Shown one piece after another: positions 7,648 to 63,299 of a stretch of DNA of 64,000 nt (position 1 is its first letter; every line of letters begins with the position of its first letter). Origin of the DNA: Orobanche coerulescens (lineage: Eukaryota > Streptophyta > Magnoliopsida > Lamiales > Orobanchaceae); assembly GCA_033398695.1 (NCBI GenBank), contig CM065812.1, forward strand, positions 141,986,858 to 142,050,857, given 5' to 3'. The position numbers and the translations under genes were made by a program. Under the pieces are notes generated by a model. That model made no database searches. It saw only the letters and a program-made list of their open reading frames with translations, and had not been told where the DNA came from.

Positions 7648-7730
7648 TTAGCGCACGTTAAACTCATAACGTAGCGTGCGCTAAGTTGTCCCGTTAGCGT
7701 GCGCTAGCCAGTAAGCTTAGCGTGCGCTAA
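7648..7730 (-). repeat. Palindrome cluster A, LARD1 left LTR
   Basis: Four copies of TTAGCGTGCGCTAA or one-step variants within 83 bp, downstream of the TATA box in element sense. Counterpart in the right LTR at 13562-13644. Confidence 0.85.
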
Positions 7731-8394
7731 TGCTGTACAGTGGCATGCATTCCAAGCATCAACTAACATCTTGCGACTACGAATCCGTATGAAGGAAGAC
7801 ATAAATCTCCATATCTCTTGAAGATAAACGACCCCATAATTATCACAAGGATCATATCAATGTCCATATATCAATAATAACATCAACAGTCAAACCGACT
7901 CGATAACAAGGATCATATCATACTCAATCTGGAATTCAACCTAGTATCATGATTCATCTCATCTAAATCGACCAATATAATTACCAAGATTCAGAAATCC
8001 ATCTTAGATCGGGTTAAATGAATCAACATTCTTATAGTATGAAGAATCTTAACTAACATCCCAAACTCTTATCAAAATTTCATTGAATCTCATATAACAT
8101 CATCATCTGATTATCCAACATGCTCCTCACATGAAATCATCCAAGAAAAACGAACCATTAACAAAGGAATACAAAGATTACCTGGTTTAGACGAACCAAA
8201 AACAAGAACACTAGAACTCCATCCAAAGAATCATGAACAACTTGAAGAACAAGGCTTGAATCCAAGCTCTCAATCTAATGTTGTTAAAGATTATCATTAT
8301 ACAGTGTTTGGGAACCTCAAATATATCCCAACTCTCTTTCTCTCGACTGAAAGAAGAAAAATGACGAAATGCTTCTCAGCACCCTTCTGTCCCT

Positions 8395-8401
8395 TTTTAT
8401 A
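8395..8401 (-). promoter_or_regulatory. LARD1 left LTR TATA box
   Basis: Minus strand reads CTTTATAAAAAGG, immediately downstream of the palindrome cluster. This is the likely core promoter of the LTR. Confidence 0.6.
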
Positions 8402-8411
8402 AAGTATATTA

Positions 8412-8921
8412 CTAGCGTGCGCTAAACCTTATGTTTAGCGTGCGCAACAGCCTTAGCGTGCGCTAACTAACTTTGTTAGCGTGCGCTATCGCAGTCCAGA
8501 GGCTACTGTCTGGCTTCGTACATGAGCTTACGTACGTAATGCCCATACATTATCGTACGTAACTTACACTGTCTAGCATACGCAAGTCCTTACATTTAGC
8601 GTGCGCTAATACCAATTGACTTGCTACAGTCTACACCTACCACGAAGATGCTCGTGACCCCACATGCTGAAAGCAACCAATAAAGCCAAGATTCCCTGTT
8701 GACCGATATACAGTTAGCGTGCGCTAATCAACTTGCATTAGCGTGCGCTAACACTACATTACAACATCCGTTGACTTATCAGAACGTGCGCCGAAAGTGG
8801 CCTGGTCCACGCGTAGATTCCTTCCGATCGGACTGCATTAGCGTGCGTTTACCTTATATCCGTAGCGTGCGCTAAACCTGCACGATAACGTGCGCTACTC
8901 ATGATTATTAGCGTGCGCTAA
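8412..8921 (-). repeat. Palindrome cluster B, LARD1 left LTR
   Basis: About 14 copies of TTAGCGTGCGCTAA or close variants, plus TTACGTACGTAA types near 8527-8565. The arms TTAGCG and CGCTAA are inverted, separated by a TG centre on the plus strand. The cluster lies directly upstream of the TATA box in element sense. Confidence 0.88.
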
Positions 8922-9627
8922 TAATGTTACACTTATCCATTTTCAGCTGTCCTCGTCCAACATCTTGACATATCAAATACGAACATACGGTATATCAAAT
9001 ATACATTACTCAACACATTATATCCTCAAATACAATTGTCGACCAAATATGACAATTATACCAATACTGACATCTCAGTCCTTCATTTATTTTATCCATA
9101 CTGTACAGATTTCACACTGTACAACATAACTCGGATAAAATAACATTAAACAATAGTAGTAGAAATTCCGGATATTACATTCTACACCACTTAAAATAAG
9201 TTTCGTCCTCGAAACTTGCAATCCGTCATAAGACAAACAAACATACCGTTCAACCCAAAATATCCCAAAATCATCACGACAACGATCAATCATCATCATT
9301 ACCGAATATCCAAAAGAGCATACTTACAAATACGCAGGTCAACGATCTCCTGAGATACTAGCAAGCGATCTCACTGTACAGTCTCAATATGCTTACGATC
9401 ACAATTCCCTGAGTCTCAACAAAATATATCATCTTCGGATGAAACATTCTACCCGAATCAAATCCTGTCTGCCTGATTACATAATCAAGTCCCAATTCCG
9501 ATAAGACGAATAATACACAATACATCTGCAAAACAACTGCCCAAAACAACGACACGAATCCCGAAACATCAACACAAAATCCGAACGCTCAGATGATCAC
9601 CAACAATGATCAACCAATAAATCAACC

Positions 9628-11650: not shown

Positions 11651-12638
11651 TATTCTGTAACACCCCCAGATTTAACCGGAAATATTACAGCGCCGTGGGC
11701 CCCGATATGGAACCCACAAGGCTAAATGAAATTTTCGCAAACATTTACAAATGCCCAAGAGGCCAACGACGGTACTATCTGTAAAAATTCACAAAGACTT
11801 ATAAAAATCCATTTATCAAAAACCGTCGGAAAAACTCATTTGAAATAACAAGGCCAAACGGCCGAAACTCAAAAGTTTAGAAAATGGTTTCCAAAGTAAC
11901 CTCAGTTACCAGATACCAAAAGAGCGTCTCCAAATACTCACGCAGCGGAAAAAGACCAACCATAAAGATACTCTAGCAGCGGAATGCAAGAACCAATCAA
12001 GAAACTCAATGCACAAAACATGTCCTAACCAGTATCCTCCGGGAAGCTCATCTCTTCACGACCGCTACAAGCTCGATACTCTAAGAACCTAAAAAGAAAT
12101 CCCACAACGGGGTCAGCCATAATATCCAACAATGATAACTGTCACATCACATTAACAATTACATACCAATGAGAATACAACATAAGAATACGACGAACGT
12201 AATCTTACTGCCATAACTTTACTTACTCAAGTAATTCTCATCAGAATAACCATTATCACAGTTTCACATTTCGTACTCGATTAACCAATAAACTCGAACA
12301 TAATATCTGTATTGTACCTCAACAATACTCAAGATTCTCGAACTATCATCACCCACTGACGATACGGAAATCTACCATTTCTGACCAATACGATCCATCG
12401 AATAATATCATCAAATCACAAGAGGATAATCGATTGTCCATCAAAGACAAATACCAAAGGAAATACGGAACATACCTCGGGATATGAAGTGTTACGACAA
12501 TCATATCAGTCTAATCCGAGATTAGAACAATGCAATACGGACAAGGTCCTAACACAAGACCTACAAATGCATACTCATATGACAACGTCAATATGCTCAA
12601 AAACAATAACAACTATGTATACTCAATGGAAATCCCAT

Positions 12639-12915
12639 GATCCAGCGCCCTCAGCATAGATCCCAAGATGATCCTATAAGATCAACACGAGGTGGATAAC
12701 CAACAATATACATATGCACAACAATAACACAATACTGGGTAATCCAACGATCCAGCGCCCTCGGCATAGATCCCCATGATGATCCCGTCGGACCAACGCA
12801 TGGTGGAAAACCTGTCCAGCGATCCAGCGCCCTCAGCATAGATCCCATGATGATCCCGTCGAACCAACGCATGGTGGACATTCGATCCAGCGCCCTCAGC
12901 ATAGATCCTCATAAT
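12639..12915 (-). repeat. Minisatellite in LARD1 right LTR (four units)
   Basis: Counterpart of the left-LTR array, with the same four-unit order. Unit 2 reads CCCTCGGCATA in place of CCCTCAGCATA. Confidence 0.85.
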
Positions 12916-14323
12916 CCCATCGGATTATTTACACAACATGAACAACACAATATGCATACACATATGCAAATCAACACATTCATCAACATGAACAACATAA
13001 CATGCACGACAACATGACAATTTACTAGGACGACTCCATTTTCAACAACATGAAAGAAAATGTAAGAGACCAAAATAAATAACATTAAACCATAATCAAT
13101 ATGGAATACTTGCCCCGAGTCCTTCGGGAGCAACCTCGATGTCCAATCATCACCGACGATTATCCTCAATGCTCGGCGATCCAAACGTACAATGAACTAT
13201 AGATACTCATATCCTCGTCTTTACCATAATGTAACCTTGATACTCGAACATACCAATAACTGAGATAAAGCATATACATTATGATTTATCTCCCAGAATT
13301 GAAAGAACGATATGCGATCCGAATACCCAGAGTTCACAATAATAATCATCGCTATATGCATTATAAACGAAATGAAACTGAAACCATTCATTAAATATTA
13401 TAACTGAGCAAGTAATATCCGATAACAATCAACAACTGACAAAACTAACCAATCGAACTCAACGGTTCAACACAACCTCGAATAAACACAGTCAGAACCA
13501 ACCAAGTCAAACCATCATGAATTCATAATCAAAACACAAAAATACTGCACTGTCTGCCTACTTAGCGCACGTTAAACTCATAACGTAGCATGCGCTAAGT
13601 TTTCCCGTTAGCGTGCGCTAGCCAGTAAGCTTAGCGTGCGCTAATGCTGTACAGTGGCATGCATTCCAAGCATCAACTAACATCTTGCGACTACGAATCC
13701 GTAAAGGAAGACATAAATCTCCATATCTCTTTAAGATAAACGACCCCATAATTATCACAAGGATCATATCAATGTCCATATATCAATAATAACATCAACA
13801 GTCAAACCGACTCGATAACAAGGATCATATCATACTCAATGTGGAATTCAACCTAGTATCATGATTCATCTCATATAAATCGGCCAATATAATTACCAAG
13901 ATTCAGAAATCCATCTTAGATCGGGTTAAATGAATCAACATTCTTATAGTATGAACAATCTTAACTAACATCCCAAACTCTTATCAAAATTTCATTGAAT
14001 CTCATATAACATCATCATCTGATTATCCAACATGCTCCTCACATGAAATCATCCAAGAAAAGCGAACCATTAACAAAGGAATACGAAGATTACCTTGTTT
14101 AGACGAACCAAAAAGAAGAACACTAGAACTCCATCCAAAGAATCATGAACAACTTGAAGAACAAGGCTTGAATCCAAGCTCTCAATCTAATGTTGTTAAA
14201 GATTATCATTATACAGTGTTTGGGAACCTCAAATATATCCCAACTCTCTTTCTCTCGACTGAAAGAAGAAAAATGACGAAATGCTTCTCAGCACCCTTCT
14301 GTCCCTTTTTATAAAGTATATTA

Positions 14324-14833
14324 CTAGCATGCGCTAAAGCTTATGTTTAGCGTGCGCAACAGCCTTAGAGTGCGCTAACTAACTTTGTTAGCGTGCGCTA
14401 TCGCAGTCCAGAGGCTACTGTATGGCTTCGTACATGAGCTTACGTACGTAATGCCCATGCATTAGCGTACGTAACTTACACTGTCTAGCGTACGCAAGTC
14501 CTTACATTTAGCGTGCGCTAATACCAGTTGACTTGCTACTGTCTACACCTACCACGAAGATGCTCGTGACCCCACATGCTGAAAGCAACCAATAAAGCCA
14601 AGATTCCCTGTTGACCGATATACAGTTAGCGTGCGCTAATCAACATGCATTAGCGTGCGCTAACACTACATTACAACATCCGTTGACTTATCAGAACGTG
14701 CGCCGAAAGTGGCCTGGTCCACGCGTAGATTCCTTCCGATCGGACTGCATTAGCGTGCGTTTACCTTATATCCGTAGCGTGCGCTAAACCTGCACGATAG
14801 CGTGTGCTACTCATGATTATTAGCGTGCGCTAA
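14324..14833 (-). repeat. Palindrome cluster B, LARD1 right LTR
   Basis: Same series of copies as 8412-8921 with a few point differences, for example CTAGCATGCGCTAA at 14324. Confidence 0.88.
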
Positions 14834-15091
14834 TAATGTTATACTTAGCCATTTTCAGCTGTCCTCGTCCAACATCTCGACATATCAAATACGAACATAC
14901 GGTATATCAAATATACATTACTCAACACATTATATCCTCAAATACAATTGTCGACCAAATACGACAATTATACCAATACTGACATCTCAGTCCTTCATTT
15001 ATTTTATCCATATTGTACAGATTTCATGCTGTACAACATAACTCGGATAAAATAATATTAAACAATAGTAGTAGAAATTCCGGATATTACA

Positions 15092-17229
15092 TGTATTACA
15101 AGATCAGGAAAGGAGTGAAAATCACCCACTTGGCTTACGCTGATGATTTTCTTCTCTTCTTGAATGCTTCTGACCACAATATTCGTATTCTTCAAAACTT
15201 ACTTGACCATTTTCAAGAAGTTTCAGGACTTAAAATTAACTGCAATAAAAGTCACTTCATCATGCACAATCCTTCTAACACGGCTAAGAAAATGGTGGAA
15301 CAGATAATTGGATTCCAGTTCCAGGCTCTTCCCTTCCAATACCTTGGTACCCCAATGTGGAAAGGGAATTAGACCCTTGACATGTACGGGGATCTCATTT
15401 TTAAAATTTCTTCTAAAATTCAAACTTGGAACCACCATCTCTTAACTATGTGTGGGAGGCTTGAACTGATAAAGTACACTTTAAACTCAATTCCATTTTA
15501 CTGTCCTCAAGTCCTGAAACCTCCTAAAAATGTCATTAGTATCCTTGAAAGAATTTTCAATCGATTCTTGTGGGGCTCTAATGATACTAAGAGGAAACTA
15601 TACTGGGCCGCATGGGATAGGCTGTGTTTCCCTACGGATGAGAGAGGGCTTGGGTGTAGAGACCTCAATGATATCATTAAAGCTTCTGAAATCAAACTTT
15701 GGTGGAGATTTAGAACAAATGACAATATCTGGTCTAATTTTCTCAAAAGGAGATATTGGAAAAGGCTACACCCAATGGTCATTAAACCCAACCCGTATGA
15801 CTCTCCCATTTGGAAAAACTTGTGTGAAATCAGACACGTGGCGGACCAGTGGATTTTTTGGGATACTGGTTCGGGTGCTGTCTCTTTTTGGCACGACCAG
15901 TGGTGTGACTTCAGCCCACTATCTCAATTTTTACCTAATACTAGATCAAACCTACTTTTACATAATCTTTGGTCGGACAGGGATTGGGACCGGCCAAAGG
16001 TCCTTAATCTGGTACCCCCAGATGTAGGCAAATACATTCTGTCTTTACCAACTCATGGTTCTTCTATACAGGCATTTTGGAAACTATCACCTAATGGTAA
16101 ATTTTCTTTCAAAAGTACCTGGTCTATGATTAGGAAAAGACAGGATTGTAATGACATTTTAAAATTTTGTTAGAATCCTGTTTTAACCCCCACTATTTCG
16201 ATTTTCATGCTACGGATTCTTCGCAAATGGATACCGACTACAGATGGGCTTAGGAAAAGAGGAATTATCACCTCAATTCCTTGCTTTTGCTGTAACCAGG
16301 ATGAAGATTCTACTCACCTTTTCTTAAAAGGCCCAGTTGCTATGGTTGTTTGGACTAACTTCTCTAATCTTGCAGGGATTTTCTTGCTAGACACAGAGGA
16401 TCTTGGAGTTGTATTAAAACATTGGTTCACCAAGGCAATTAGTAAAATGCATATATTTCATCTTATTCCCATTTTGATTTTGTGGTTTTTTTGGTGTTCC
16501 AGGAACGACAAACGTGTCAAAGGAATCCCATTTACAAGTCAAAGAGTGTGCTCCCGCATCTGGTATCATCTCAACACGATCAAGACATCCACGATGATAT
16601 CTCCTTCATTCTGGAAATCTGCGCCATTGATTAGTGACCTTTTATATATTAAAATTTTCCCATGTAACTTTGGTTATTGTATTATTTGTAATTGTATTAA
16701 AAAACCACCCAAACTGTTTGTGGTACGTTGGTTACTTACTTCGATCGGGAATGTAAAAATTAATACAGATGGCGCCTCGAAATGAAACCCAGGGGAATCG
16801 GCGGTCGGGGATATTGCTTGTGATTACCGCGGCCGCCCCATTTTTGGCTTTCATGAATACATAGGCCAGAAAACTAATGTCTTTGCGGAGCTTTATGCGA
16901 TTTGGAGGGGCCTTGATCTTTGCCGTGACAGGAACATCAACCGGGTTTGGATTGAAGTAGACTCGGAGACGTCCATCAACCTCATTCAAAAACCCCATAT
17001 GGGGAATTGGAAACTTCAAAATACTTTGCACAAAATTAGGGAACTATCTGGTGCTATGGATGTCCGGTTCTCCCACATTTTTAGGGAAGGTAATGCAGTC
17101 GCGGACCTACTTGCTAATGAAGGATGTAGGCAAAAAGATTTCTTTCTGTATGATATCTCAAATATCCGAGGCAAATTATTAGGCCTCATTAAACTTGATC
17201 AAAGACAAACACCATACATAAGGCTTAGG
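15092..17229 (+). pseudogene. LINE ORF2, C-terminal RT, zinc-ribbon and RNase H
   Basis: Picks up the RT frame exactly after the target duplication: MYYKIRKGVKITHLAYADD carries the catalytic YADD motif (about 15140). Further RT thumb blocks follow (GLKINCNKSHF, FQYLGTPMWKG, WAAWDRLCFPTDERGLGCR). Near 16280-16380 a zf-RVT-like CFCCNQDEDSTHLF block is present. An RNase H domain runs 16755-17130 with INTDGASK, FAELYAIWRGL, VDSETSINLI and EGNAVADLLANEG. Stops at about 15372, 16171 and 16783 break it. A C-terminal RNase H is typical of many plant L1 elements. Confidence 0.9.
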
Positions 17230-19873: not shown

Positions 19874-20197
19874 TTAACGTACGTTATCTGTCGGAGTTAG
19901 CGTACGCTACGAATGTAGAGCTAGGCGGCTGTCACATGCGCCAGCCAGACATGGGTCCGGATAAGATTCCCTCGGATGAACCTGGACACTTTTGAAGTCA
20001 ACGACGTACGCTAAGGATTGTGTCTAGCGTACGCTAATGTGTGTTACTTACGTACGTAACGTGATGGTGTAACGTACGTAATCAAGGTCAGAATCAGGAC
20101 AGTTAACTATCAGGACGATAGTGTACGCTAAATTATGCTGGGTAGCGTATGTTAAAGAGGCTAACGTACGTTATGTATGAAGGTTAACGTACGTTAA
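19874..20197 (+). repeat. Palindrome cluster upstream of TATA, truncated Tekay LTR
   Basis: About ten copies, including TTAACGTACGTTA, GTTAGCGTACGCTAC, TTACGTACGTAA and TTAACGTACGTTAA. The last copy ends 12 bp before the TATA box. Confidence 0.88.
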
Positions 20198-20953: not shown

Positions 20954-21240
20954 TGACGTACGATAATCACTGAGGATTTCGTACGCCTCATCATCCATAA
21001 GAATAGTCGACTGATTAATGAGAGACTGTCGGATGCTTGTTTAGCATACGCTATGCACTGCAGCTTCCGTACGCTAACGGGCAAGATTAATGTACGCTAC
21101 GATTGGTACGTAACGTACGTTATGGCATCAGGCGAGTCAGTCAGCTGAGTTCATGGTTAGCGTACGCTAGACCTCGTAACTTACGCGCTCTAACGGGTAG
21201 GCTTAACGTACGCTACCTAGGGCACGTAACGTACGTTAAG
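20954..21240 (+). repeat. Second palindrome cluster, truncated Tekay LTR
   Basis: About nine further copies with CGTACG cores, for example GTTAGCGTACGCTAG near 21160 and TAACGTACGTTAAG at 21227-21240. This cluster is downstream of the TATA box, as is cluster A of LARD1. Confidence 0.85.
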
Positions 21241-30767: not shown

Positions 30768-32706
30768 TGTAATATACGTACCTTTCTATTCTTAACAGTT
30801 TCCATTTTTGGTATATGTCTATTTTTATCGACTCGCTTGTAACCGTTTCAACATTTTGAATCTACTTTATTCTTGGAGTTTTTCCATTTGGACGAGTTTT
30901 GGTGATGTTTTTACGTGATTCCAGTTTATGTCATATTTTGCCGTATGTACGTTCGATTCTCGTAAAACTCGCTCGTTTTCGTTGTTTCTTGGTTTGCATG
31001 AGTAAGTATGATTTAGTTGGTCGTGTTGAGACTTTAGGTTTGTTAATCCGATGTCGTATGGTGATTTTCGGGCACTTGGGCCATTTTTGTAATTTCCTAT
31101 AAGTTTAGGGAATTTCTTATTCGTTGTCGTATTTTGGATTCCCGGGTATTCAGAATGATGTTTTCTTGTGACGGTTAGACTCGTCATCGAATATTCTTCG
31201 TAGTCATATTTTTGGTTCGATAGCAGGTCCAAGTTTCGGAGTCGTTTGGACAGCAGCAGCCAGAACCTGCTGTCCAACAGGGTGTTACGGCCGTAACACC
31301 CCATCTGTTACGGCCGTAAGATAGCAATTGTTACGGACGTAATACACTACTTGTTACGGCCAGAATCGCCACTGCTTTTAAGAACAATGGCGAGTCAATT
31401 CTTGATTTTTTATCCCTTCTCTTCGTTTTCTTCGACGTGCGACTTCAGAGGCGATTTCCACCGGTATTGCTCGGAGTTTTCTTCAAATTCCATCACCGTA
31501 TAGTCGTGTTAGCATATTATCATCAGCGTAATCATCCTCCATCATCTGAATCCGAGGTATTTTCTTCAGGAACCCTAGCTTGTTAAATTTGGGGGTTTTT
31601 CGGGTTTTTCTTGATTAATTCCAAATTGTTCATGTATGTTACAAAATTCCTTACCGATTGTTGTTATTGGGTGATTCCCAATCCGTTTTCCTCAAGTTTA
31701 ATCCGTGAATTGTTGATACGGGGAGATTTTGCGTAAACCCTCGCCCGTATCGATTGAACGTTTATTGTCATGAATTGTAACTGGGGTTATGGGTGTATTC
31801 CATTCGATTATTGTTGTCCGTTAGGACTGAGTTGTGTTAATCCTTCATTTAGGAACCGTCTTTTTCCATCCGGACCGTTCGTAGTCGTATTTCATTTCCG
31901 ATTCTTCAAAGATGTCTCAAAGGCAAGTACTTTACATTAGTTTACCTGTTCTAGTATTTGAATTATGGCTATTCGTGGTTGTGTGGATGGATATGTGTAC
32001 GTTCACCTAGGGACGGTCCGATGGGGCCTCTAGGGATACGTATTACCGTGTGTGTGCATATCACGAACTATTGTTAACCACCCAGGGATGTCCGACGGGG
32101 CTCTGTGGGGTACGGTGGCCGTGAGTCTCGTACCAAGGTTAACTTTGAATTGTTTTGTTAGAGAAAATGTGTTTTGTGCTTGTGCACCGTTAATATTCCG
32201 GAATATAAATGATTTCTAAAATGATTTTTGGCGCATATATTTATCTGATTAGAATATAGTTCAAATGGATTGTACTTGCACTAGCAGTTGTCGCTAACCC
32301 CTTAAATAGGGGAAATACTTTTTGTATTTCAGGTACAGGTCTTGGAGACAAGCGAGCACTCGAGCCGTATGAGAATGATGGGCAAGCATGATACTATTCA
32401 GTAGTCAATTGTTGGTGTTCTGTTCTGTCGGTTTTTATTGATGTCTTGGTTTGGGATTTCTGTATTATAAAATTGGTTTAAGTACTCGAGTACTTCCTTT
32501 TTGAATTTGTTAATGTTGTGTTCCCGTTTTGGGAAATGGATTTGATGTCAGATTTTATTGTCGGATTGTAGTCTTTTATTGAATTGTCGTTTAGTTGACG
32601 GTTGTATGTCCATGTCCGATGTCATCTGGGCACGTTAGCCTGGTGGATTCCACATTGTGGGGTCCACGGCGCTGTAATATGCCCTGATCGTCCTGGGGGT
32701 GTTACA
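30768..32706 (+). repeat. 5' LTR of complete Tekay element
   Basis: Starts TGTAATATACGTACC and ends GGGGGTGTTACA. Contains a TTACGGCCGTAA-type palindrome cluster at 31280-31361, two imperfect GTCCGAYGGGG-containing repeats at about 32010-32140, and the 'cgctaacccctta' motif shared with other Tekay LTRs here. Confidence 0.92.
31280..31361 (+). repeat. TTACGGCCGTAA palindrome cluster, 5' LTR
   Basis: Four units. The first lies in a 22-bp perfect palindrome centred on CGGCCG (31280-31301), whose inner 20 bases are GGTGTTACGGCCGTAACACC. The others read TTACGGCCGTAA, TTACGGACGTAA and TTACGGCC. The cluster at 38184-38264 in the 3' LTR matches. Confidence 0.88.
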
Positions 32707-32711
32707 GAATA

Positions 32712-43415: not shown

Positions 43416-43861
43416 TTAGCGCACGCTACGATGTATACTTAGCGTACGTTAAGGCAAAAGGATTACACACGTTAAGGAGTATAGTTAACCTACGTTAAGA
43501 TGCTAAGTGTTACGTACGCTATGTATAAGGCATTACATACGTAACGAGAGGAATCGGATAGCTCAGGCTATGGCCGATAGGTGGGACCCGTGGTTGGCAG
43601 CTTTCGGCGAAGAACGTGCTTGGTCGGGTCAACTCTTGGTTAACATACGCTATGGGTAGTGCATTACGTACGTTAAATGGGGATTTACTGTAGCAAGTCA
43701 ACATATGTATTATGTACGCTATGAAGGAAATATTACGTACGTAAGCAAGTGAACGAAATAGGAAAGTGAGTTCTGGAATGATGTTACGTACGCTATGTTG
43801 GATGTTTAGCGTACGATAGAGAGCATTACGTACGTTAATGTTGAGTGATAACGTACGTAAT
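43416..43861 (+). repeat. Palindrome cluster upstream of TATA, LARD2 LTR
   Basis: About 13 copies: TTAGCGCACGCTA, TTAGCGTACGTTAA, TTACGTACGCTA, TTACGTACGTTAA, TAACGTACGTAA and others. TTACGTACG-type arms dominate here, whereas LARD1 is dominated by TTAGCGTGCGCTAA. Confidence 0.88.
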
Positions 43862-49787: not shown

Positions 49788-49789
49788 AT

Positions 49790-49802
49790 TGGCGCTAGAA
49801 GG
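49790..49802 (+). promoter_or_regulatory. Primer-binding site of Tat element
   Basis: TGGCGCTAGAAGG, 2 bp after the LTR. This is a site often seen in Tat/RIRE2-type elements and differs from the initiator-Met sites elsewhere in the window. Confidence 0.7.
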
Positions 49803-49915
49803 AAGGGGATCTATACCTTCATTTTTCATTCCTACCGTCCCGAAGAACACTCACTGTTCTCGGGGCATATACTTGAAGTGACGCTCACTACGCTTCAAAG
49901 AAAACCTTCAGAATC

Positions 49916-51437: not shown

Positions 51438-52667
51438 GCCGAAGCCCCTATCAATCTCTATACACGATTGTCCGAGTCGAACACAAACAGGTTGAGAAGC
51501 TCATACGCGCCGATCCCTAGATCAACCTCGGCGACCGTCTCTACACATTTCAATTAAGAGAAGGGAACCTCGGAAGTCTCTCCCCGATCTCCCTCCTCAT
51601 TTAAGAAACTGGAGGACTCGCTCGCTATCTACAGTTCACCATCTAACGTGATGGACTAAGGCACGAGATCGCCTCCCCCGCACAACGTACACCGTCGAAG
51701 GTCGGCATCTACATGACGATCCGAGGTAGAAGAGTGCAGCCATGGTCCTGGTGGTCGATGGAACCGACTGCTTAGGCCAAGCAAGGTCCCTTTGGGCCAA
51801 GATCGCCCTCCCTTCGTTTGAATACGAGGCCGGCGTAGTCTGAGGGCCCTCCAAAACTAATCAGTGGACACGATCGCCCGCCCTCAAAGGTTCATCATTC
51901 AACATGGTGAACCCGGATAATGCGATGCGTCACTACCCCCGTCTCAACGTACACCGTCGAGGTTCGCCATCTTCATGGCGGGCCAAGGTGGAAGCAGAGA
52001 TAACAAGCCGCGGGCGTGGAGTTGAATAATCCGATGCTGCCCCGCGCAAGGACTCCTCTAGACTAAGACCGCACGCCCTTCGTTTAAATACGAGGCGAGG
52101 CGCAGCCTAACAGAGGACCCTCATAATAAAATGAGTCACGAGACAGACAATGTCGTTCGCGCACAAGACATGGTCATGGAGTCGGTCCATCGAACTCCGT
52201 GATCGTGCACGGTTCCTCAAGACGGACGATCGTCCTCGAGGATTCGACAAAGTTGAAGACCGCGAACTCAGCGAATTATTTTCATCCCCTTACTTTCACT
52301 AAGTGAATAAAAACAAGGGGGAAGAGTGCGGACTACCTAAACGACGATCGTCCCTATACTACCACATATGGAGATCGCCATTTTTCAGATGTTGTGCAGT
52401 GATCGAATTTGTTGTAAAAGTTATCTTTATGAGTTTATCAATTCATTCGGAACTACCCTCGCAACGATCTCTCCTCACACATTTGTACAAAGTCAAACAA
52501 AAACTCAAAAATAGCAATCATTCAAGTGATAAGCCAGAAAATCAAACATTCATTTCATTGCTTGAAGGATCAAAATACATGGTCGCCCGAAGGCCAAAAT
52601 GCTACAAAGAGAAAACTACAAAACTACGAGACAAAAAGCTAAAACAAGCAAGCAAGAGCGAAGAGCC
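51438..52667 (+). other. Post-gag non-coding region of Tat element
   Basis: No pol remnant was found. An imperfect tandem duplication of about 260 bp is visible: AACGTACACCGTCGA and CCCTTCGTTTRAATACGAGG occur at 51686/51812 and again at 51948/52077. Near 52270 CACTAAGTGAATAAAAACAA separates it from the tail of the antisense gene. Confidence 0.6.
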
Positions 52668-55324
52668 TCAGGCCCCCGCCTTTGGCCCGCCTTGCGTCGG
52701 CTCGACACCGCAACCGTCCCGGTTTGGAGCGGCCTCCCCGTCCTCCGGATCGTCAGGATGAACGAGGTTCGCCGGAGTCAGATACCAGCTCAGATCCACG
52801 CCAAGCTCCGAGAGATCCAAAATCGGCAAGGAGAAAGCAGGATGGAGAGGATGCTCCAGCGCATACGCCTTGCAATTCTCGGCAAGAGGGCCGACCTCCA
52901 ACCCTCCCTTCTTGGCAGCCCGGATCGAGTCAGCGAACGCCATATAATAGGCAAACTCGCTGACAAACTCCAAGTTAAGGAAGGGATTGGCCTTGGTCGC
53001 CTCTACCTCCCTTTTTAGCTCCGCCATCGCCTGTTGCGACCCTTGGAGCTCGACCTCCCTCGCAGCTATCTTCTCCCTCGACTCCGCCAGCTCGCTTGTC
53101 AACCGAGCGATCGTCACCTTCTAACGATCGGCCTCCTCCTCAGCAACCTTCTGTGCCCAGACTGCATTCATCATCCCGTCCCGGAATCGATCAACCGCCA
53201 AACGAGACATCTCGGCTTCCTTCCTCGCCAGCTCAAGGTCTTGGCTCGCCCGCTTAGCTGCCTCCAAAGAGTCCTTCTCCATTGCCGCGATCTTATCGGC
53301 GAACTCGGCGTTTTCTTTCCGAGCCACCTCGAGATCCGCCTGCAGGCGAATAGTGGAAGGTCGCCCCTCAAACTCCTGTGCAGCCTGGACAGCCATGGTC
53401 GCCGTCTGAAGAGAAAGGGCGAGAACAGCCTGCATCGTACTCCCCGATCGCTGACGAGCGATCGCATCTAGATCGGTCGTCCAGGCCTTCGGTAGAGCAG
53501 AAGCGGCCTTGCTGACGTATTGCGGGATGTCACAGGACTGGCGAGGAGATCGGCTCGCTAAGAAATCCAACACCATCGGCGGGCAAGATGGATCTGTGCG
53601 ACGGATCCTACATCAAAACAACAAAGTTAACACAACTCCTACGCAAATGCAAGTTTCAACTCAAAAATGCAACTCCTACCTCTCAGCCCTCTCGGGGTCG
53701 CGACCGAAGTACGGTTTCCCTCGAGAAGTCTCAGCATCAGAGATCGCCATCTCTCGCATAAAATCTGCAGAGGGCGACTCATTCTCCGGAGAGAGAACGG
53801 TGATCGGAGGCGCGGCAATTGGCACCTCATTGGCGGGGGCAGGAACCGGAGTTTCTTCCGGCCTCGACCTTTTGCGATTCGTTCGAAGCCCCTCCTCCGG
53901 AGCTCCCTCCTCGGCCATGATCATCTCCACGCGGGGCTCCACCTCCGGAATAATTGGCAGCGCAACAAGTGGGGCCCGAGACGACTTCTTGTGGCGGAGA
54001 CGGTCGAGAACTCCAGGATTCGACATGGCGATCTCCGGTGGGGGATCCAAAAAGCGAGGAAAGCGAACCTCTACAGTTAAGACGATCGATCAACAGTTAG
54101 ATATTTTCCTCAAGTAAGGTGATCGCCTAGAAAGTGAAGGTCGCAGAAACTCATACCTGGTACCGAGAGATATCTCGAGAAACGGAATAGCCGAGCCGAC
54201 AACCAACGACTTTCCTTATTGATCCGGCTAGCGTCAAGGTCGTCGTCCGACAAGCTCCGTATTCGCTCCCAGACAACCAGGAAATCAAAGGGCAGCTCCT
54301 CGACCGCCGGAATGTGAAAACCTGCAAAACCGAAATCAAATTAGATCAGTTCAAAATGCATCCGAACGAAGGGAGAGTCTAAACCCTTACCGGGATTCCT
54401 CTCCCGAAACTCAGTAGGGATCTCCAGCTCGCCTGAAGGATTGTCGCTCGCAGAAGCCCTCCACGCGCCGGCGACCCAGAACCACTTCGACGGGTCGCCC
54501 CGCGCCTTATTCGGGACTCCGAGAATTACCCGACCAGATCGGACCTGAATATGGTAACCTCCGACCGACCCTTTCTGAGCCGTCAGCTTGAACAAATGGT
54601 TCATCTCCGACGGTGATGGGAGGCGGTACAGGCGGTGACCGCCGAAAAGAGTGAGAGTGCAGATAATCTGGAGCCAAGCGTTCAGCGTCAGCTGAAGTGG
54701 CGCCACGTTCCAAGCGGCCAGCAGGTGGGAGACAGCAAAAGATAGAGGGAAGCGTAGCCCGGCCTCCATAATTGCCTCATTCACGGCGACCATACCCATC
54801 GGGGGTTGATCGGCACGCTCATTCTCCGCCGGCGCAAATATTTCCACATATGAAGGAACGTGGAACCTCGTCCTCCAGACGGCCAGATCTTTCCTTGTCG
54901 CCGAACTCCAGATTTGGCCAAGCGACCACAAAGATCACTGCGCAGTCCGGTACTGCGACCGTTTGGCGAGCTGATAGGGATAGGCGATCGAGTAACCCCG
55001 GAAATAGAATCTCGGAGTCAGACCGGCCAACTTCTCCATAATCTCAGCAAAAGCCAGATAGGCCCGGCCGAAAGCGCTATGCTGCTCCCAGTAGGCCCTA
55101 ATCGCCAGATCTCTCTCCATCTGCGATCGTCTGTCTTCAGCAGCCGCTTCCTTAGCGATGTCGGATTCATTAAATAAAGCCTCGATTTCAGTAGGGTCAA
55201 TTTCGGACCGAATAGCCTCAGCGGCCGTCTCCGAGTGGAAGTCAGAAGAAGGTCCTCCCCGGACAGTCGATGTCCCAGCGGCGGAACTGGTACCCACTCC
55301 ATGTGATGATGACGTTCCAGCCAT
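52668..55324 (-). pseudogene. Antisense ORF of Tat element (putative gypsy-type transposon domain), three introns
   Basis: On the minus strand the ATG at 55324 opens MAGTSSSHGVGTSS. A TGA near 54936 interrupts the frame, which continues through the conserved domain (54850-54450): IMEAGLRFPLSFAVSHLLAA, QLTLNAWLQIICTL, KGSVGGYHIQVRSGR and PSKWFWVAGAW. This matches the 'putative gypsy type transposon' domain of Tat antisense ORFs. Introns with GT-AG borders are inferred at 54390-54322, 54156-54071 and 53679-53608. The last exon is a long coiled coil (ADLEVARKENAEFADKIAAM; ARLTSELAESREKIAAREVE) with one TAG near 53122. Function of this protein is unknown. The second intron leaves the frame ambiguous. 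Confidence 0.75.
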
Positions 55325-55827
55325 TCTCAAAGAAAGAAAGGAGAAAAGGATTTTTTCTTACCCAAAGATGAAATTGATCGACGATCGGCAGTCGAATCTC
55401 TTAGAAGCGTTCTTCAGCAAAGTCCTTCTTTCTCCAGTGATGAAGCGCATAAGAGTTTTGACGCTGCGTCCTCACGTCCTTTTATAGGAGGCGAAAAGGA
55501 CTCCTGTGCAAATAAGAAGAATCTCAGGGGTCGGAAGTGCAGCCGTCGCATTTATTGACTCCCTCGAGACCCGCGTACGCGTCTTTTCAAGGACGCGTCA
55601 GTCGAGGAATCATTAATGACCATTGATATCCTCCAACAGAAGCCCGACACGTGTGCGGAGACTTATCCACGCCCATTGCCATTTCCCGCGTAGTTTAGCG
55701 GCCATCCAGGTCATCCAAATTCAGTTTCAATCAGCTCAATGACGATCGCCAGTTCAGGGAAACGCAGAGTCGCTCGTCGAAATTCAGCGATCGCCAGCAG
55801 AGCCACCTCACCCCACATTTTCAACAT

Positions 55828-55848
55828 AGGAGCGAGCTGGGGGGCAAT
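55828..55848 (+). promoter_or_regulatory. Polypurine tract of Tat element
   Basis: GGAGCGAGCTGGGGGGCAAT directly precedes the 3' LTR. Confidence 0.75.
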
Positions 55849-56956
55849 TGTTGTGTCGAGATTTATTCGACTCGACAGGGGATCGACTATAAGGCCGAGC
55901 GACCGAGTCAACACCAGTCAAACTATGGCTAGCTCGCCTAATCGAAGATACCAGCCCACCATCAGGTACCTAGCGATCGACTCCCAAGGCGATCGCCCTT
56001 TGGGATCTGGCGATCGACTCAAGTGCACGGCTAAGGCCGGTCGACCTACGCCCCGAACAGAGACGATCGCCCGGTAAAGTCATCGAAGACTGGATCTCAG
56101 AACAGCACCCACGTGCAGATCCAAAAAAGGCGCTGACAGACAAGACCTTTGACCCCAGCCTGTCACCTACCTCACCTACTGACAGGTCTGCCGAAAGTTA
56201 CAAAGTGGGACTGCCCGTGACGGCGACTCAGGACGCGTGCAGGCTCCCCATTAGACCGTACAGTTGTCTACCAGCAGCAGCCACGGACTTTAAGGGAACA
56301 AGCCCATGTGCTAAAAGGCGATCGCCCGATTATTATAATACAGCAAAGGCGATCGCCCGGCATATCCAAGTCCTATAAATAGAGAACCTCCTCCTACTGG
56401 AAAAAGGTTCCCAACTCATTCACTTACATTCTGAATTCATTCACGGAAATACAGAAGAACATACATATCATCAAGCTCCCAGCTTTCTCGCCGGAATCTA
56501 CCTCAGGATTTCTCTCTCAGAATCTCTCATCCAGAAGACGATCGGCAGAGGCAAGAAGTTTCCACAAGGTAGATTCCAAGAGATTCATAAGCCCAGGAGC
56601 TCAAGCATCCAGCTAATACTCGCCGTGAGAGACTGTCGATCTCTCACCGCCGCGACTGTTCATCTCCTTTGTTACAAGAACTCACAGAGCATCACATCTG
56701 GTTCTTCCGGCAATCTACACGCTCACTAGCTAAGATAACAAGAATCTTTACACTCATTGTAATTGTATTCTTACATTAGTACTTGTATCCCCGAATGTTA
56801 GTATTAATAATATCTCGCGAGAGCATTCAAGCCCGGGACTAACAACCCCGACAAATCTTGTGTTATTTATCTTTCTCACGGAAGTGTTCTCGCATTTGTT
56901 TGCTATCCATCCATTCCAGCAATATCTATCTCCGAATAATATTTTGGGTAGCAACA
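55849..56956 (+). repeat. 3' LTR of Tat gag-only element
   Basis: Near copy of the 5' LTR; TATA box TATAAATAG at 56374-56382, GCGATCGCC words upstream of it. Confidence 0.9.
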
Positions 56957-56961
56957 ATCGT

Positions 56962-57192
56962 GTTGGAACTTACCGTGTGAGGGTATTCTAGATTGTTGTT
57001 GGTCATTCGTTGGTAATATGGGAGTTTATCATGTTGATGATATTCTCGATTGTGTTTTGACCTTTGGATTGGTCGTATTAGAGTTTATCATATCGATGAT
57101 ATTCTCGATTAATTTATTGGTTGATCATTGTTGGTGATCATCTGAGCGTTCAGATTTTGTGTCGATGTTTCGGGATTCGTTGGCATTGTGTT
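56962..57192 (+). other. LARD2 interior, right part
   Basis: Resumes the LARD2 interior after the ATCGT duplication and matches the complement of 9550-9780 of LARD1, including two GAGTTTATCAT...ATGATATTCTC hairpin units. It ends where the LTR TGTTGGTATATT begins. Confidence 0.8.
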
Positions 57193-58407
57193 TGTTGGTA
57201 TATTATCGGATATTTGCGTCGTTTTGTGCGGAAGCAAAAATAAATTGCGGAAAATAAATCACACAAGGATTTATAGAGGTTCGGCTATTAACGAAGCCTA
57301 CGTCCTCTCTCGATGTATCTTTTTCCTTAGGCTTAAAATAAAAACCTCTACGCCTCTCTTCTATCGGTCGAGGGATTACCGTTACAAGTTCGTCTTCTAT
57401 CGGTCCGAGTAAAACCGTTTTTCCTTTTCTATTGGATAAGGAATCAACCACTCTAGTTTTATATGGGTACTAGATAAACCTCACTAAGATATCGATTGAG
57501 ATTCTAACAATGCCGGATACTTGATCCTAATAACACCGAATCCAATCGTATCTTTTCTTTTACCTCTCGTGTATAATGTTGAATGTATAAAACACTCAAA
57601 CTAACAATATAAGCTCAATATTACAACAACAATGTAAGAATATGATTCTCAGATGTATGACTCATTTGCTTGAAGTTGTTGTACTCAAACAATACCATAG
57701 GGATGGTATTTATAGGCATTTTCCACAAACTAGCCGTTGCTGGCTGTTTTGACTTGCTAGCGTGCGCTAGCCTTCTTTATTAGCGTACGCTAGTGTCATT
57801 AGCGTGCCTATAGCGTGCGTTAGACTGTGCCCAGTTTCAGTCCAGTAGTTTCGTTTCTTCTTTAGCGTACGTTATGCCTTCTGCCTTACGTACGTAACCG
57901 TCTTGTATTAGCGTGCGTTAATAACACATTGTAGCGTGCGCTAATCCAATATATCCGTTGCATGGATTGTCAAAGTATCTGTTTGATATGCTGACTTTGA
58001 CCTGCTTTTCCCAATGTTCTGATTGACTTGATTCAAACAGCTTAGCGTGCGCTATTCCTTCTTTGTAGCGTGCGCTAATTCTGACTTCATTGCATACGTC
58101 ATTCTGTGTTTGAATTCCTTCACAACGGTCACAAGACTTTGATAGCGTGCGTTAATGATAACGTGTAGCGTGCGCTATCTCATCAGCTGACTTCACTTCA
58201 GCGTACTTCGAACTTGGCTGATATGCAGTTGACTCCTCGTTAGCGTGCGCTAACATTTATGTCTTAGCATGCGCTAGACATGCATTATTCTCAGCTTTTT
58301 GCGTCTTCGTTTGCTTCGTCGTTTTGCTTCGCCTCGATGTTGTTTTGTTGTTTAGAAACTTTAATCATCAAAACACTAATTAAATAATGTATGGAATAAA
58401 TATTCCA
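57193..58407. repeat. LTR next to Sirevirus-like gag, promoter signals point away
   Basis: TGTTGGTATATT to TATTCCA. By position it is the 5' LTR of the plus-strand gag element, since a primer-like site follows at 58409. But on the minus strand it shows the usual order: palindrome cluster (58277-57756), TATA box TATAAATA (57714-57707), then GGACGTAGG...CCGAACC and an end CCAACA. Orientation is therefore left open. A perfect 16-bp palindrome, TGGAATAAATATTCCA, forms its right end. Confidence 0.6.
57756..58277. repeat. Palindrome cluster in Sirevirus-side LTR
   Basis: About 13 copies: GCTAGCGTGCGCTAGC, TTAGCGTACGCTAG, TTACGTACGTAA, TTAGCGTGCGTTAA, GTTAGCGTGCGCTAAC and others. Most centres are TG on the plus strand, as in LARD1, although this is a Ty1/copia context. 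Confidence 0.88.
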
Positions 58408-58408
58408 A

Positions 58409-58418
58409 GTATCAGAGC
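58409..58418 (+). promoter_or_regulatory. Primer-binding site of copia gag element
   Basis: GTATCAGAGC, matching ten of the twelve bases of the initiator-Met site; the leading TG is replaced. Confidence 0.6.
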
Positions 58419-58464
58419 GGTACTCCATTACGCGGCTTAACATCTGAGGAGAAAAAGATCAAAA

Positions 58465-60010
58465 ATGGCGTTTCAAATGGCTCCAGTCGAAGGCCTTGAT
58501 CTCAACCGACCACCATTTTTTGATGGCGTGAACTTCATGACTTGGAAGAAGAAGATGTCGATATTCATTCGAGCTTACGACATCGAACTTTGGAAGGTGA
58601 TTTGTCTTGGTCCAAATATTCCAATGAATTCCAATGGTACGCTTAAAAATTTTGAAGAATATGACGACTCCGATTGGAAAAACAACCATTTCAATTGTAG
58701 GGCAACTCAACTTCTTTATTGTGCCTTAAATCCGGAAGAACACAACCGGATATCATCGTGTGATAGTGCCAAAGAAATCTGGAAAATGCTTGAGGTAACA
58801 CACGAAGGTACGTCTCAAGTCAAAGAGACGAAGATAAACATGCTCCTTCACGATTATGAATTATTCCAAATGAAGGACGACGAATCCATCTCGATTATGC
58901 TCGACCGATTTTCGGTCATCACTAATGGATTAGCATGTTTCGTAAAACCACTTTCGAATAGTAAGAAAGTAAATAAAATTCTCCGATCACTACCTCGAGA
59001 ATGGGACGGTACGGTTACGGCAATAATGGAATCAAAAGATTTAAATACTCTCGATTTTAGTGCTCTCGTCGGTTCTCTCATCAACTATGAGATAGTTCTA
59101 AAGTCTCGGAATGCAAAACCAAAACCGAAGGAAAGATCGTTAGCCATGAAGGCTAAGATGTCTAAAAAGAAAGAAGAAATTCAGGTGGATGATAGCGACG
59201 AAGAAATGGCATATTATGCCAAGAACATTAATAAGTTCCAACACTTATTAAACCGGAGAAAGAAGGACATCCAAGCGGGCGAATCGAAGAAACCCGACAA
59301 CACTTGTAGATTATGTGGTAAACCAGGCCACTTTGCCAAGAACTGTCGAGTAAAGCAAAAGGAAGTTTTAATCGCAACATGGAGCGAACGAAGATCCCGA
59401 TGAAGATTTTCTTGACCAAAATAATCTCGCGCTCATGGCCCGGATTTCATTCGACGATAGCGACGTCGAAAGCCAAGTAAGTAACTCCTACGACGAACTC
59501 TTTGAAGCATTCGAGTTATTACATACGGACTATCAAAATGCTTTAAATGAAATTAAATCCCTCAAGTCTAAATATAAGACCTTGGAAATTGAAAATTCCA
59601 AAATACTTGAAAAAGGGAAATTTGTTGAAATCGATCATTCGAAATGTATTGAAAATGAGAATATTTTAAAAAATGATCTTTCAAAAGTTCAAGATGAACT
59701 AAAAATTTTGACAAAGAAATTCTCGTGCGGCAACGATAAATTTGAATAAATGTTATGCGTTCAAAAATATACTCTAAATAAAGAGGGGTTAGGATTCAAA
59801 CCACGTTTGAAAAACGAATCCGTCAATTTCAAAATACCCCGATGTGAAAAATGTGTGAAAATTGGGCATCATATTTCAAGTTGCAAAAGCCCAAGACGAA
59901 CGATAAAAATTAAAAAGATTTGGGTTCTTAAAGGAACAAACATTTCAGATATCGTCTACGTTTCAAAAGAGAAACCAACTATAGGTTGGATCCCCAAAAA
60001 TAAATTTTAA
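58465..60010 (+). pseudogene. Sirevirus-like Gag
   Basis: MAFQMAPVEGLDLNRPPFFD opens a copia-type gag: WKKKMSIFIRAYDIELWKVI, ALNPEEHNRISSCDSAKEIW and LRSLPREWDGTVTAI. A zinc knuckle CRLCGKPGHFAKNC lies near 59310. A frameshift near 59388 leads on into DEDFLDQNNLALMARISF, then a coiled coil (59500-59730). A TAA at 59747 precedes GLGFKPRLKN and a second knuckle CEKCVKIGHHISSC (about 59850). The end WIPKNKF resembles the border between Gag and protease in SIRE elements, where pol would start; here a stop follows. Confidence 0.82.
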
Positions 60011-60432
60011 CAAGTGATATTTTACAAAGGGGGAGAAGGAATATTTTTGAGGGGAAGATAATATTTTCAGGGGGAGTATTTTTATATAACTAAATTCCCT
60101 TATTAATGCATAAATTGATATCATGCATATTTATATTTCATTTGATATACTCTATATTAATATACTTTTTGGTGAAGACAAAAAGGGGGAGATGGAGATG
60201 AATTGAGATAAATGAGAAGGAGATGAAATGAGAAAAATCGAAGAAGTCGAAAAGAGCATACAAATAGGGGGAGTTGAAAAACGAAAAACGAAGGAGTTGA
60301 AAAAATAAGGGAGATGAAGAAAAAGAAGAGAATTGGAGAAACTAACGAAACGATCAAAGCCGAAAACTTTGATTCGTATAAATATACATATATTATTTTT
60401 TTTCAGGTTTTATCCAATTCAAGAGTTGTTTT
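60011..60432 (+). promoter_or_regulatory. Multiple polypurine tracts, 3' end of copia element
   Basis: Purine-rich stretch with GGGGGAG at about 60029, 60073, 60184 and 60268 and long GA-rich text. Serial polypurine tracts are described for Sireviruses. Confidence 0.6.
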
Positions 60433-63299
60433 TGTAACACCCCAAAAGGCGGCTATTACAGTGCCGTGAATCCCACATTGGGACCCACCAGGCGATATCC
60501 AAACAGGTTAAATAAATATTATTTGTGATACCGAACCACAATGAATAGTCATTACTCCGATTAGGAGTTTATTAAAATATGGCCAACGGCCTTACAACAC
60601 ACAGGATCCAAAAAAAACAAGTATAAACCATATGGGGATGGAAAATACTTCAAATGTCAAATACAACCAAATAACAATTTAAATGAAGCAGGAAATAACA
60701 TAACACGGTTTAACATAACCGGACAACAAAGACGAGGGGCCCCCGAACTAGTATCCTTCGAACCCTTCGCCGTCGACATGCTCTTCCCGTGCCTTGCCTT
60801 TGCCTCGACCTAAAATACAATACAAGTATTTCGCCCAACACAGGGTCAGATATACATGATAACCAGTTCTTCCGACATTATACAATTCACATATATAGAT
60901 CTCAGGAAAGTCGTTCCGACTATTAATCATACCCCTCGGGCGTATGAAACAATCAGTTACAAAACATCGAACACATCCAATCATACATGGACTATGAATG
61001 ATTAACAATATAGCTCAAGATGGACATCACAGTACGCCCGATCCGGAAATGTGTCCGTGTACATGTCCACCCCGTATACGGAATCCAAAATATACGTGTG
61101 ACAATATACCTAATTAGCCTCACGAACTACGTCTCGTGTGCACAGTCTAATACGGAAACATCCACGTATGACTATACAAGTTCCCGGCTAAAAATCCTAC
61201 ACAATATCCAATCGGCACGCAGATATGATTCCGGAAATGTCACGACACAACATGACAACGAAGTTCAACGAAATACACATCCAATTAAGGATCAAGAAAA
61301 ACTCACCAAAGTGAAAATAAGGACCAACGAGATCAACGATTCAAAGCAGCGTGCTTGGAATGCAATCCCATAACGTCAAGGACAATATCAAATCATGACA
61401 AACGTCACATGGACAATTCATACACATGAAATATATAATCATCACAAGAATCTAATCATCATTATAACCAAGCAAGATAACTTGCCTTAATACGGAGACG
61501 AGAATAGTCCTCTTCTTGTCGGAACGAACGAACGGTCCTCGACTAATATTGTTTACTCGAACAATCAACCTTAAACGAAATACATTTTACTCAAAAACAT
61601 ATTCGTATAATTATCAATATAGGATTAGTAAGACGTCAATCTACAATCCTTTAGAATAGTTTGTTACTACCCATTATTGAAGCCTTATGTCAGGAGTCCT
61701 TCTAACATCATTACAACCATAAGAATCGGTTTACAATATTTACCGAATGTTCGCATGGTTCATCATAAACAAGAGTTCTATCAAGGGTATGTTGAATAAC
61801 CAATTATGATGTTAAGATCATCTTATGATGATTAAACTTTCCAAAACATTAAAACGTTGAAAGGTAAAATCTGCACATTATGATTATTCTCCTCTCATCT
61901 AAATTGACTTTTAAGCTAACAACAACTTCATAAGTTCTGAGATTACACCATACCCATGAGTTTATCAAAGTCTTTGTTTACAAGGCTGGAGGATTCATTA
62001 ACATGATGGTGAATTCACCATTTATCTAGTATGATGATCAAAACATTCTAAGTTCTCAACACATTAGATTAATGAAAAGTTATTGTTGTAATTATCAAGA
62101 TCCTAATCAATCTCCAAAGACTTGTGAAGCTGAACCATAATGATTTAAAGTTTCTAAGATTTCTGAACTAGATCATCTAATCTTATCTTTAACATTATCA
62201 AGTTCTTCTCAAGGTAAATAAATACCTAAAATGGTGTTTAAACACTTTATGATATCAAGTTCTTGACTAAATCCAGTTATGATGAAGCTAACCGATCCAA
62301 CAATGTCCTACTGAGCTAAATTCGTCCAGAAGATGAGTAATGACAACTACAAACATGGTTACCATTACTACAATATCAAGAACTCCTCTAATCTAAACCC
62401 TCATTTATCATATTCATTAAGAAGTGTTTAAAGAGTTTAATTATAACCATGTTTTACTTGCTTAATCTAACTCTAGGTGAAGTATAATTCGTCATTAATC
62501 ATCAACATAAGAAAATAATGCAGAGAAGAAAGCACACCTACCTCCAGAAATGAAGAACAACTTCAATGCTATGAGAGAATATATTCCAAGCTAAAAACAA
62601 CTCCAAATCTCAAGGAAATGAGCTCCACTCCAAGATTCAAGGCTTAGAAACAAGTTGGTGAAGGTTGATATCGTTTTGGTAGTGCGAGGTATGATATGTG
62701 AAGAGAGAAATTCGGTTTGGGGTTGTGAAGAAATGAAAACAGTGGTCCTATAAATAGTATGCGAGACTTAGCGCACGCTATCGGGACAGATTAGCGTACG
62801 CTAATGAACTTACGTACACTATCCGGACGATATTACGTACGTAAGCGGCTTACAGTGGCTACTGTCTTGAATTATCGCAGGCCGTTAGCGCACGCTAATG
62901 ATAAATTTGTTACGCACGCTAATAAAAGTAGATTCTCACCGACACGACATCTCAGACTTAGATCACATGCATGCTAACGGCTAAGGAGTTCACGTGCCGA
63001 AGTCAACTGCTGCCAGATTCCCTCTTAGCGTACGCAACCGAGGAAACCTTACGCACGCTAATGCACAGGATTAGCGTACGTTAATCTTACTGTGTAGCGT
63101 ACGCTACATTAACAGAAAAATTCGAAAATGCAACACTCTAATTAACATCGAATCATCACATATGAAATGAAATAACAACGATATGATATTCAAATCTATA
63201 ATACCACGACGAAATACTAAATGCAACGATTCATGATAATCAGATCATCCGAATAATACAGTGACAGGTAAAAATGAAAAGTTACAGTCGGATATTACA
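60433..63299 (-). repeat. 3' LTR of minus-strand Tekay element (2867 bp)
   Basis: Minus strand TGTAATATCCGAC to TTGGGGTGTTACA. Palindrome cluster 63107-62768, then a TATA-like TATTTATAG (62756-62748), then a leader. Confidence 0.83.
62768..63107 (-). repeat. Palindrome cluster, minus-strand Tekay LTR
   Basis: About ten copies, for example TTAGCGTACGCTAA, TTACGTACGTAA, TTAGCGCACGCTAA and GTAGCGTACGCTAC. It ends 12 bp upstream of the TATA-like box in element sense. Confidence 0.88.

Follow-up and report, generated by a model that had tools for sequence, protein, structure and literature searches.

The window analysed here, the whole 64-kb stretch of Orobanche coerulescens contig CM065812.1 from position 141,986,858 to 142,050,857, is a nest of long terminal repeat (LTR) retrotransposons whose LTRs carry dense arrays of one palindrome with the consensus TTA(R)CG-YR-CG(Y)TAA, where Y is a pyrimidine and R a purine. 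Arrays of this word are present in LTRs of both Ty3/gypsy and Ty1/copia, as the first-pass annotation of the window had proposed. They occur in two large retrotransposon derivatives (LARD1 and LARD2), a truncated Tekay, a minus-strand Tekay and a copia LTR, while an intact Tekay carries a variant, as follows:

14347..14834, minus strand: promoter-proximal array of the LARD1 5' LTR, 10 sites, with TATAAA 43 bp past the start of the last core
8412..8922, minus strand: copy of the proximal array in the LARD1 3' LTR, 13 sites
13562..13644, minus strand: second cluster of LARD1, downstream of the promoter (copy in the other LTR at 7648-7730), after which no TATA box was seen
19874..20197, plus strand: proximal array of the truncated Tekay LTR, 8 sites, with TATAAATA at 20209, the last core starting 21 bp before it
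20957..21240, plus strand: second cluster of the truncated Tekay LTR, 6 sites, after which no TATA box was seen
43416..43861, plus strand: array of the LARD2 LTR, 9 sites, with TATAAA at 43875
57756..58277, minus strand (transcription orientation): array of the Ty1/copia LTR, 12 sites, with TATAAATA on the minus strand at 57707-57714
62768..63107, minus strand: array of the minus-strand Tekay LTR, 9 sites, with TATTTATAG 21 bp past the start of the last core
31285..31365, plus strand: four TTACGGCCGTAA-type palindromes in the intact Tekay 5' LTR, two of them exact, with 23-bp spacing and a variant centre
38188-38268: the same four-palindrome set in the other LTR of the intact Tekay, two of them exact

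Dense palindromic words had been claimed at these coordinates and are indeed found there. A relaxed palindrome pattern with a pyrimidine-purine (YR) centre matches the window at 74 sites; 50 dinucleotide shuffles yield 1.9 on average and 8 at most. All 74 lie inside LTRs, which make up ~31% of the window with some limits assumed (e.g. 61500 for the minus-strand Tekay), so that the proposed concentration in LTRs holds in a density check within the window, where 0/74 relaxed sites fall outside them. When any centre is allowed the number of sites rises to 87, of which 81 are in LTRs (74/81 with a YR centre) and 6 outside (0/6). The individual LTRs hold 17 and 13 sites in LARD1, 14 in the truncated Tekay, 9 in LARD2, 12 in the copia LTR and 9 in the minus-strand Tekay; the clustering is therefore as announced, whereas the predicted range of 10-20 words per LTR becomes 9-17.

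Four of the five array-bearing elements are of gypsy type, since LARD1 (LTRs 5572-9180 and 11656-15092) and LARD2 (beginning at 43172) form one family whose LTRs start with TGTAATATCCGG and have Tekay-like ends. The earlier count of five elements over two superfamilies thus stands for the superfamilies, while LARD1 and LARD2 belong together in a single family of Tekay type. A tandem 71-74-bp repeat common to the truncated Tekay and both LARDs (21508-21649, 45472-45687, 6659-6794 and 12743-12878) is further evidence of their Tekay type. RVT_1, RNase H and integrase, followed by a Tf2-1 SH3 domain and a chromodomain before the 3' LTR, mark the chromovirus lineage Tekay, and the gypsy elements agree with this arrangement, the assignment being made from domains. 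The Tf2-1 SH3 domain precedes the LTR in both window Tekays that bear arrays. PF24626 is located at 63338-63748, 19245-19541 and 37136-37501 of the window and in L022, one of the loci (numbered with L) set beside the window. Chromo scores above the Pfam cut-off in L023 and below it in L022 and in 63338-63748 of the minus-strand Tekay, and Pfam did not find it in 19245-19541 or 37136-37501. Coding evidence lies near the gypsy-type arrays of the truncated Tekay, the minus-strand Tekay, L021, L022 and L023; the arrays of L010 and L017 align with these coding-supported ones, and L027, counted in the gypsy-type group, is unclassified.

The copia member of the window is represented by two features:

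57190..58408, minus strand: Ty1/copia LTR with approximate limits, in the opposite orientation to the primer-binding site (PBS) and gag that follow it
58441..59403, plus strand: copia gag, PF14223 Retrotran_gag_2 with a zinc knuckle

Across 57181-58460 the U3 end of the inverted LTR adjoins the plus-strand PBS and gag, and its other end abuts LARD2 DNA. Because the LTR is inverted, the neighbouring gag alone is poor evidence of its copia identity. This identity comes instead from L011, where the order LTR, PBS, gag is normal and whose LTR aligns with the reversed 57190-58408 at 80-84% in three stretches; L011 (1-10000) consists of LTR-gag-LTR-gag units repeated in tandem every 3.13 kb, ~97% alike, with arrays in the LTRs and gag as the only coding region recognised. 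The LTR described earlier as standing beside a Sirevirus-like gag is therefore a copia LTR, although it is inverted relative to that gag, the only part of the window copia element scanned for domains. A copia example is L015, whose LTRs are 97% alike and both carry arrays, and whose domain order (Retrotran_gag_2, gag_pre-integrs, rve, RVT_2), with rve before RVT_2 as in Ty1/copia, is a Sirevirus mark by domain order only. Another Sirevirus mark was found in L015, namely palindromes before the TATA box in both LTRs with a further cluster upstream of the env-position open reading frame (ORF). Sireviruses are expected to carry several AGGGGGAG polypurine tracts, the last of them 10 bp before the 3' LTR; L015 has one exact octamer at 7451 (reverse-strand coordinates) and, immediately before the LTR, AAAAAGGGGAGATTG, which is one base short. 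At L015 3014-4300 a palindrome array and TATATATAA directly precede a Transposase_32 ORF at the env position, forming an apparent internal promoter. L035 comprises a copia LTR and a gag of the same type, and L016 is assigned to copia solely on the start of its LTR and its polypurine tract (AAAAAGGGGAAGATTGG). Fourteen stretches of 1.6 kb upstream of copia gags were chosen by eye for variety from the best 150 of 81,014 PF14223 candidates. An array lies in the element's own LTR only in L035, that of L030 being in unassigned DNA further upstream, and 12/14 stretches lack an array, with the limit that a longer LTR may be partly missed in 1.6 kb. Thus the arrays belong to one copia kind with Sirevirus marks and not to copia at large.

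The two superfamilies share the internal grammar of the site as well as the word. The YR centre is present in 163/166 sites of 16 arrays, chosen by a pattern that itself required this centre, and in 99/100 of the first 100 genomic TTAGCGNNCGCTAA words, counted by eye. CA/TG centres pair with G arms in 128/142 scored arms; TA centres are accompanied by A or shorter ones in 102/153. The centre/arm type is uniform inside each array and varies from one array to the next, to an extent reached by 0/5000 permutations with related arrays included, and both types are present in copia as in gypsy-type arrays. Neighbouring sites are preferentially spaced by 22-24 bp, in 50/98 pairs across ten gypsy-type arrays (mean 6.8 and maximum 15 under the null) and in 19/34 pairs of four copia arrays (null 2.6, maximum 8). 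A spacing of 23-24 bp is common to both superfamilies, and 23/24 bp is also the commonest distance below 150 bp among the first 100 exact words (10 pairs).

The DNA between the sites is in contrast random. Linker identity is 28.0% within arrays (n=96) and 27.9% between them (n=1179). The earlier statement that the text between copies is unrelated, so that simple homology fails, withstood a search for contrary alignments, as 0/40 copia-gypsy pairs of masked arrays (L016 and L030 left out) align at E up to 0.01. Masked arrays do align within the main Tekay group (TekayA, L010, L017, L021, L022 and L023) and between copia L015 and L035, and the L015 LTR and pre-env arrays have a single masked match of 18 bases, inverted, with E 0.004-0.009.

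Most arrays end shortly before a TATA box. Read in transcription orientation, 14/17 arrays have a strict TATA word at most 120 bp after the last site of the first cluster, where letter shuffles give 1.4. From the start of the last core the TATA box is 21 bp away in the truncated Tekay, the minus-strand Tekay, L021 and L027, 23 bp in LARD2, 31 bp in L022 and L023 and 43 bp in LARD1; the corresponding distances are 50-52 bp in three copia LTRs, 85 bp in the L015 LTR, 68 bp in L030 and 26 bp before the L015 env-position ORF. L016 has only an AT-rich word, which lies inside an array truncated by the script. Over the 3.65-Gb genome searched, with the reversed word or pattern as control, TAGCGYRCGCTA-N2..32-TATAWATA matches 25,060 + 26,321 = 51,381 times against 1 + 1. 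The gap from palindrome to TATA is 11-12 bp in 86 of the first 100 of these 51,381 matches, with 49 distinct spacers of these lengths. The 86 cases should not be taken as independent, given that the spacers are partly related and that some matches come from copies of a single family. The gap pattern does not cover the longer copia distances. Helical phasing of the site-to-TATA distances (21, 31, 43, 50-52) is not claimed: the Rayleigh value at 10.5 bp is ~0.06 for all ten values and 0.01 without the pre-env value, a pattern noticed only after the data had been inspected.

The word is abundant throughout the genome. TTAGCGNNCGCTAA has 285,729 occurrences and the reversed word 21; TTAGCGTRCGCTAA is found 144,212 times forward and 145,550 reverse against 4 + 1. 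Among the first 100 exact words on C1, 93 have another within 1.2 kb. Twenty 10-kb stretches, at round-number positions fixed before being seen, hold 128 relaxed sites against 12 for the reversed-letter control, with at least 6 sites in 9/20, one site in 2 and none in 9, from which a whole-genome total of about two million relaxed sites may be roughly extrapolated. Viral contigs gave 0 matches to a pair of words 6-14 bp apart.

Taken together, the arrays are best read as promoter-proximal cis-regulatory sites for a symmetric dimer, probably host-encoded, which would activate the TATA promoter just downstream, the arrays having been built separately in the different elements; on the sequence evidence we give this a probability of roughly 0.65. 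That the arrays were built up separately is suggested by the fact that only sites, spacing and position before the TATA box are alike. The protein would recognise TTA(R)CG half-sites while tolerating any pyrimidine-purine step between them, and YR centres with fixed flanks suggest an indirect readout of a kinked centre, not base-by-base reading. It would occupy neighbouring sites about 23 bp apart, and Tekay-type Ty3/gypsy elements, LARDs and copia would retain the same sites through dependence on a shared trans factor, which is most likely a transcription factor of the host. We infer protein binding, activation, host encoding and the silencing of copies by CpG methylation alike, host rather than element encoding being the less certain step. 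More tentatively, and in our view doubtfully, one dimer may serve as a common promoter key for unrelated superfamilies, each having built up the same 23-bp-spaced array independently, and may license a large part of the LTR promoters, with CpG methylation locking silent copies.

The decay of the sites suggests when selection may have acted. In the LTR pairs of LARD1, L015 and two L011 tandem comparisons that share one LTR, 12/187 motif CpGs and 21/301 other CpGs have changed, while non-CpG letters change less (6/442 and 72/3794). The intact Tekay, whose word differs and which is kept out of these sums, gives 0/12, 34/218, 3/39 and 80/1672 in the same order. Between homologous LTRs identity is 539/645 in cores, 721/863 in arms and 3690/5098 in linkers (ten overlapping pairs, each counted both ways), i.e. 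sites are 84% alike, core and arms, and linkers 72%, although CpGs change faster than other bases. Post-insertion decay together with better-kept sites across homologues suggests selection on the elements while they are active.

Several observations weigh against the dimer interpretation. Motif CpGs decay like other CpGs, so inserted single copies are not protected, and in one of the ten overlapping pairs (L022-L017) sites are kept no better than linkers. The intact Tekay of the window is without the main word, its LTRs (30768-32709 and 37660-39614) having 0 relaxed-pattern sites; its TTACGGCCGTAA-type palindromes are a third variant of the same grammar. No TATA word was found in L010 and L017 by the patterns used, and none was seen after the second cluster that Tekay and LARD LTRs carry ~700-900 bp downstream of the first (20957-21240, 13562-13644 and 7648-7730 in the window; L021 and L022). 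The distance to the TATA box of 50-52 bp in copia (85 in L015), against 21-43 bp in Tekay-type LTRs, shows that the two kinds differ in geometry. There is partial relatedness among the 49 spacers, which single linkage at 60% identity joins into 4 groups, one of 41, and the selection of arrays by a YR-requiring pattern bears on the strength of the centre rule.

The first-pass annotation had offered convergence on one host DNA-binding dimer or exchange of promoter modules, and convergence is the best reading. Exchange is less likely, and on balance improbable: an array-plus-TATA block would have moved between Tekay and copia LTRs by recombination or template switching, the linkers diverging afterwards. 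Array and TATA box do stand together in both groups and before the L015 env-position ORF, as expected of a portable block, whereas the failure of all 40 masked copia-gypsy alignments, the different distances to the TATA box and the presence of both centre/arm preferences in both groups speak against it. Slightly less probable still is a factor encoded by one of the elements, whose protein would bind the sites in trans as VANC does on VANDAL motifs and be exploited by the others. The uniformity of centre/arm type within arrays and its difference between them resemble family-specific VANC targets (related arrays not being independent), and copia L015 has an extra ORF, the Transposase_32 one, after its own array and TATA box. 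However, Pfam found only Transposase_32 in the scanned piece of that ORF (its first part, in another frame, being outside the scan), arrays are borne by LARDs, in which no retrotransposon ORF was recognised, and by the gag-only units of L011, and a motif common to two superfamilies is the reverse of the narrow targeting reported for VANC (PMC10398659).

We consider it quite unlikely that the palindromes act at the RNA level, with hairpins or duplexes in the RNA of the 3' LTR serving small-RNA silencing or packaging. In maize Sireviruses, the LTR regions rich in palindromes are reported to be small-RNA hotspots, and for six window arrays the predicted folding surpasses that of dinucleotide shuffles (z -2.2 to -4.8). 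This gain derives mostly from the motif letters, as linker-only shuffles give z +0.6 to -1.7, and both the TATA distance and the 23-bp spacing favour a role of the DNA. Simple common descent, or the tandem copying of a single repeat unit, is favoured by the alignments within the main Tekay group and between L015 and L035 but is very improbable overall, and contradicted between the superfamilies, given the lack of any cross-superfamily alignment and neighbouring 9-bp linkers that are no more alike than unrelated ones.

The known DNA-binding families considered as the putative dimer fit the sites to different degrees. The suggested link of the GTAC core to SBP-box (SPL) proteins is not supported, GTAC being present in only 77/159 array sites and the centre being any YR step in 163/166; an SBP-box target array, which should have GTAC in each site, is rejected, as about half of the sites lack it. 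The brassinosteroid-response element (BRRE, CGTGYG) fits 71/159 sites and the CAMTA-type CGCG 8/159, and neither accounts for the set. NAC targets are described, in the part of the literature available, as a half-site T[TAG][GA]CGT[GA] and as palindromes with ~6-8 bp between CGT and ACG. The NAC half-site is present in 148/159 array sites, but the two half-sites abut without a spacer, unlike the published arrangement, and 30 of the first 100 TATA-linked palindromes (leftmost palindrome in each row) have a CG centre without CGT[GA]; the NAC half-site is thus kept only as a lead.

The anatomy of the copia member is that of the Sirevirus repeated motifs (RMs) with a new word. In the available text of Bousios et al. 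2010 (PMC2829016), RMs are many palindromes in the upper LTR before the TATA box and again before env, have a CGG-CCG core in 12/13 RMs, are described as Sirevirus-specific, and were said to have a regulatory function in need of experimental confirmation. In contrast, the TTA(R)CG-YR-CG(Y)TAA word lacks the CGG-CCG core, only the intact Tekay variant TTACGGCCGTAA containing CGGCCG, and is common to Ty3/gypsy Tekay-type elements and LARDs as well. It also displays the 23-24 bp spacing and, in many loci, the 11-12 bp TATA gap, where the available text of PMC2829016 gives no fixed RM spacing. Sharing across superfamilies has a partial precedent in the maize palindrome CACCGGACNNNGTCCGGTG, which the accessible part of PMC10760457 reports in structured regions of Copia and Helitron, likewise one palindrome common to two transposable element (TE) superfamilies of one genome. 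Unlike the present arrays, CACCGGACNNNGTCCGGTG was found as RNA-structure regions, and that part describes neither gypsy LTRs nor promoter geometry. The VANC targets of VANDAL are similar as dense short motifs in non-coding TE DNA, there recognised by a sequence-specific protein; VANC is however encoded by the element itself and targets that element's family and its close relatives (PMC10398659, as far as its text was available; see also PMC5735166). A literature search, in which the word itself was sought only as CGTACG, found no report of a palindrome common to copia and gypsy LTRs. Palindrome arrays before the TATA box being already published for Sireviruses, what is new is the use of one word and one spacing by Tekay-type and LARD LTRs as well as by copia.

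A word common to Ty3/gypsy, with a preferred spacing and an often fixed TATA distance, makes the predicted binding protein a concrete target, for which a 37-bp probe would take in two sites plus a 9-bp linker. With their random linkers, the abundant natural copies constitute a ready-made site-selection library. If the dimer interpretation is true, it would show that convergence on a single trans factor is possible for unrelated retrotransposons.

A further LTR element, with LTRs 96% alike and an internal part whose GC content is up to 0.59, is inserted in LARD2 at 48687-56958.

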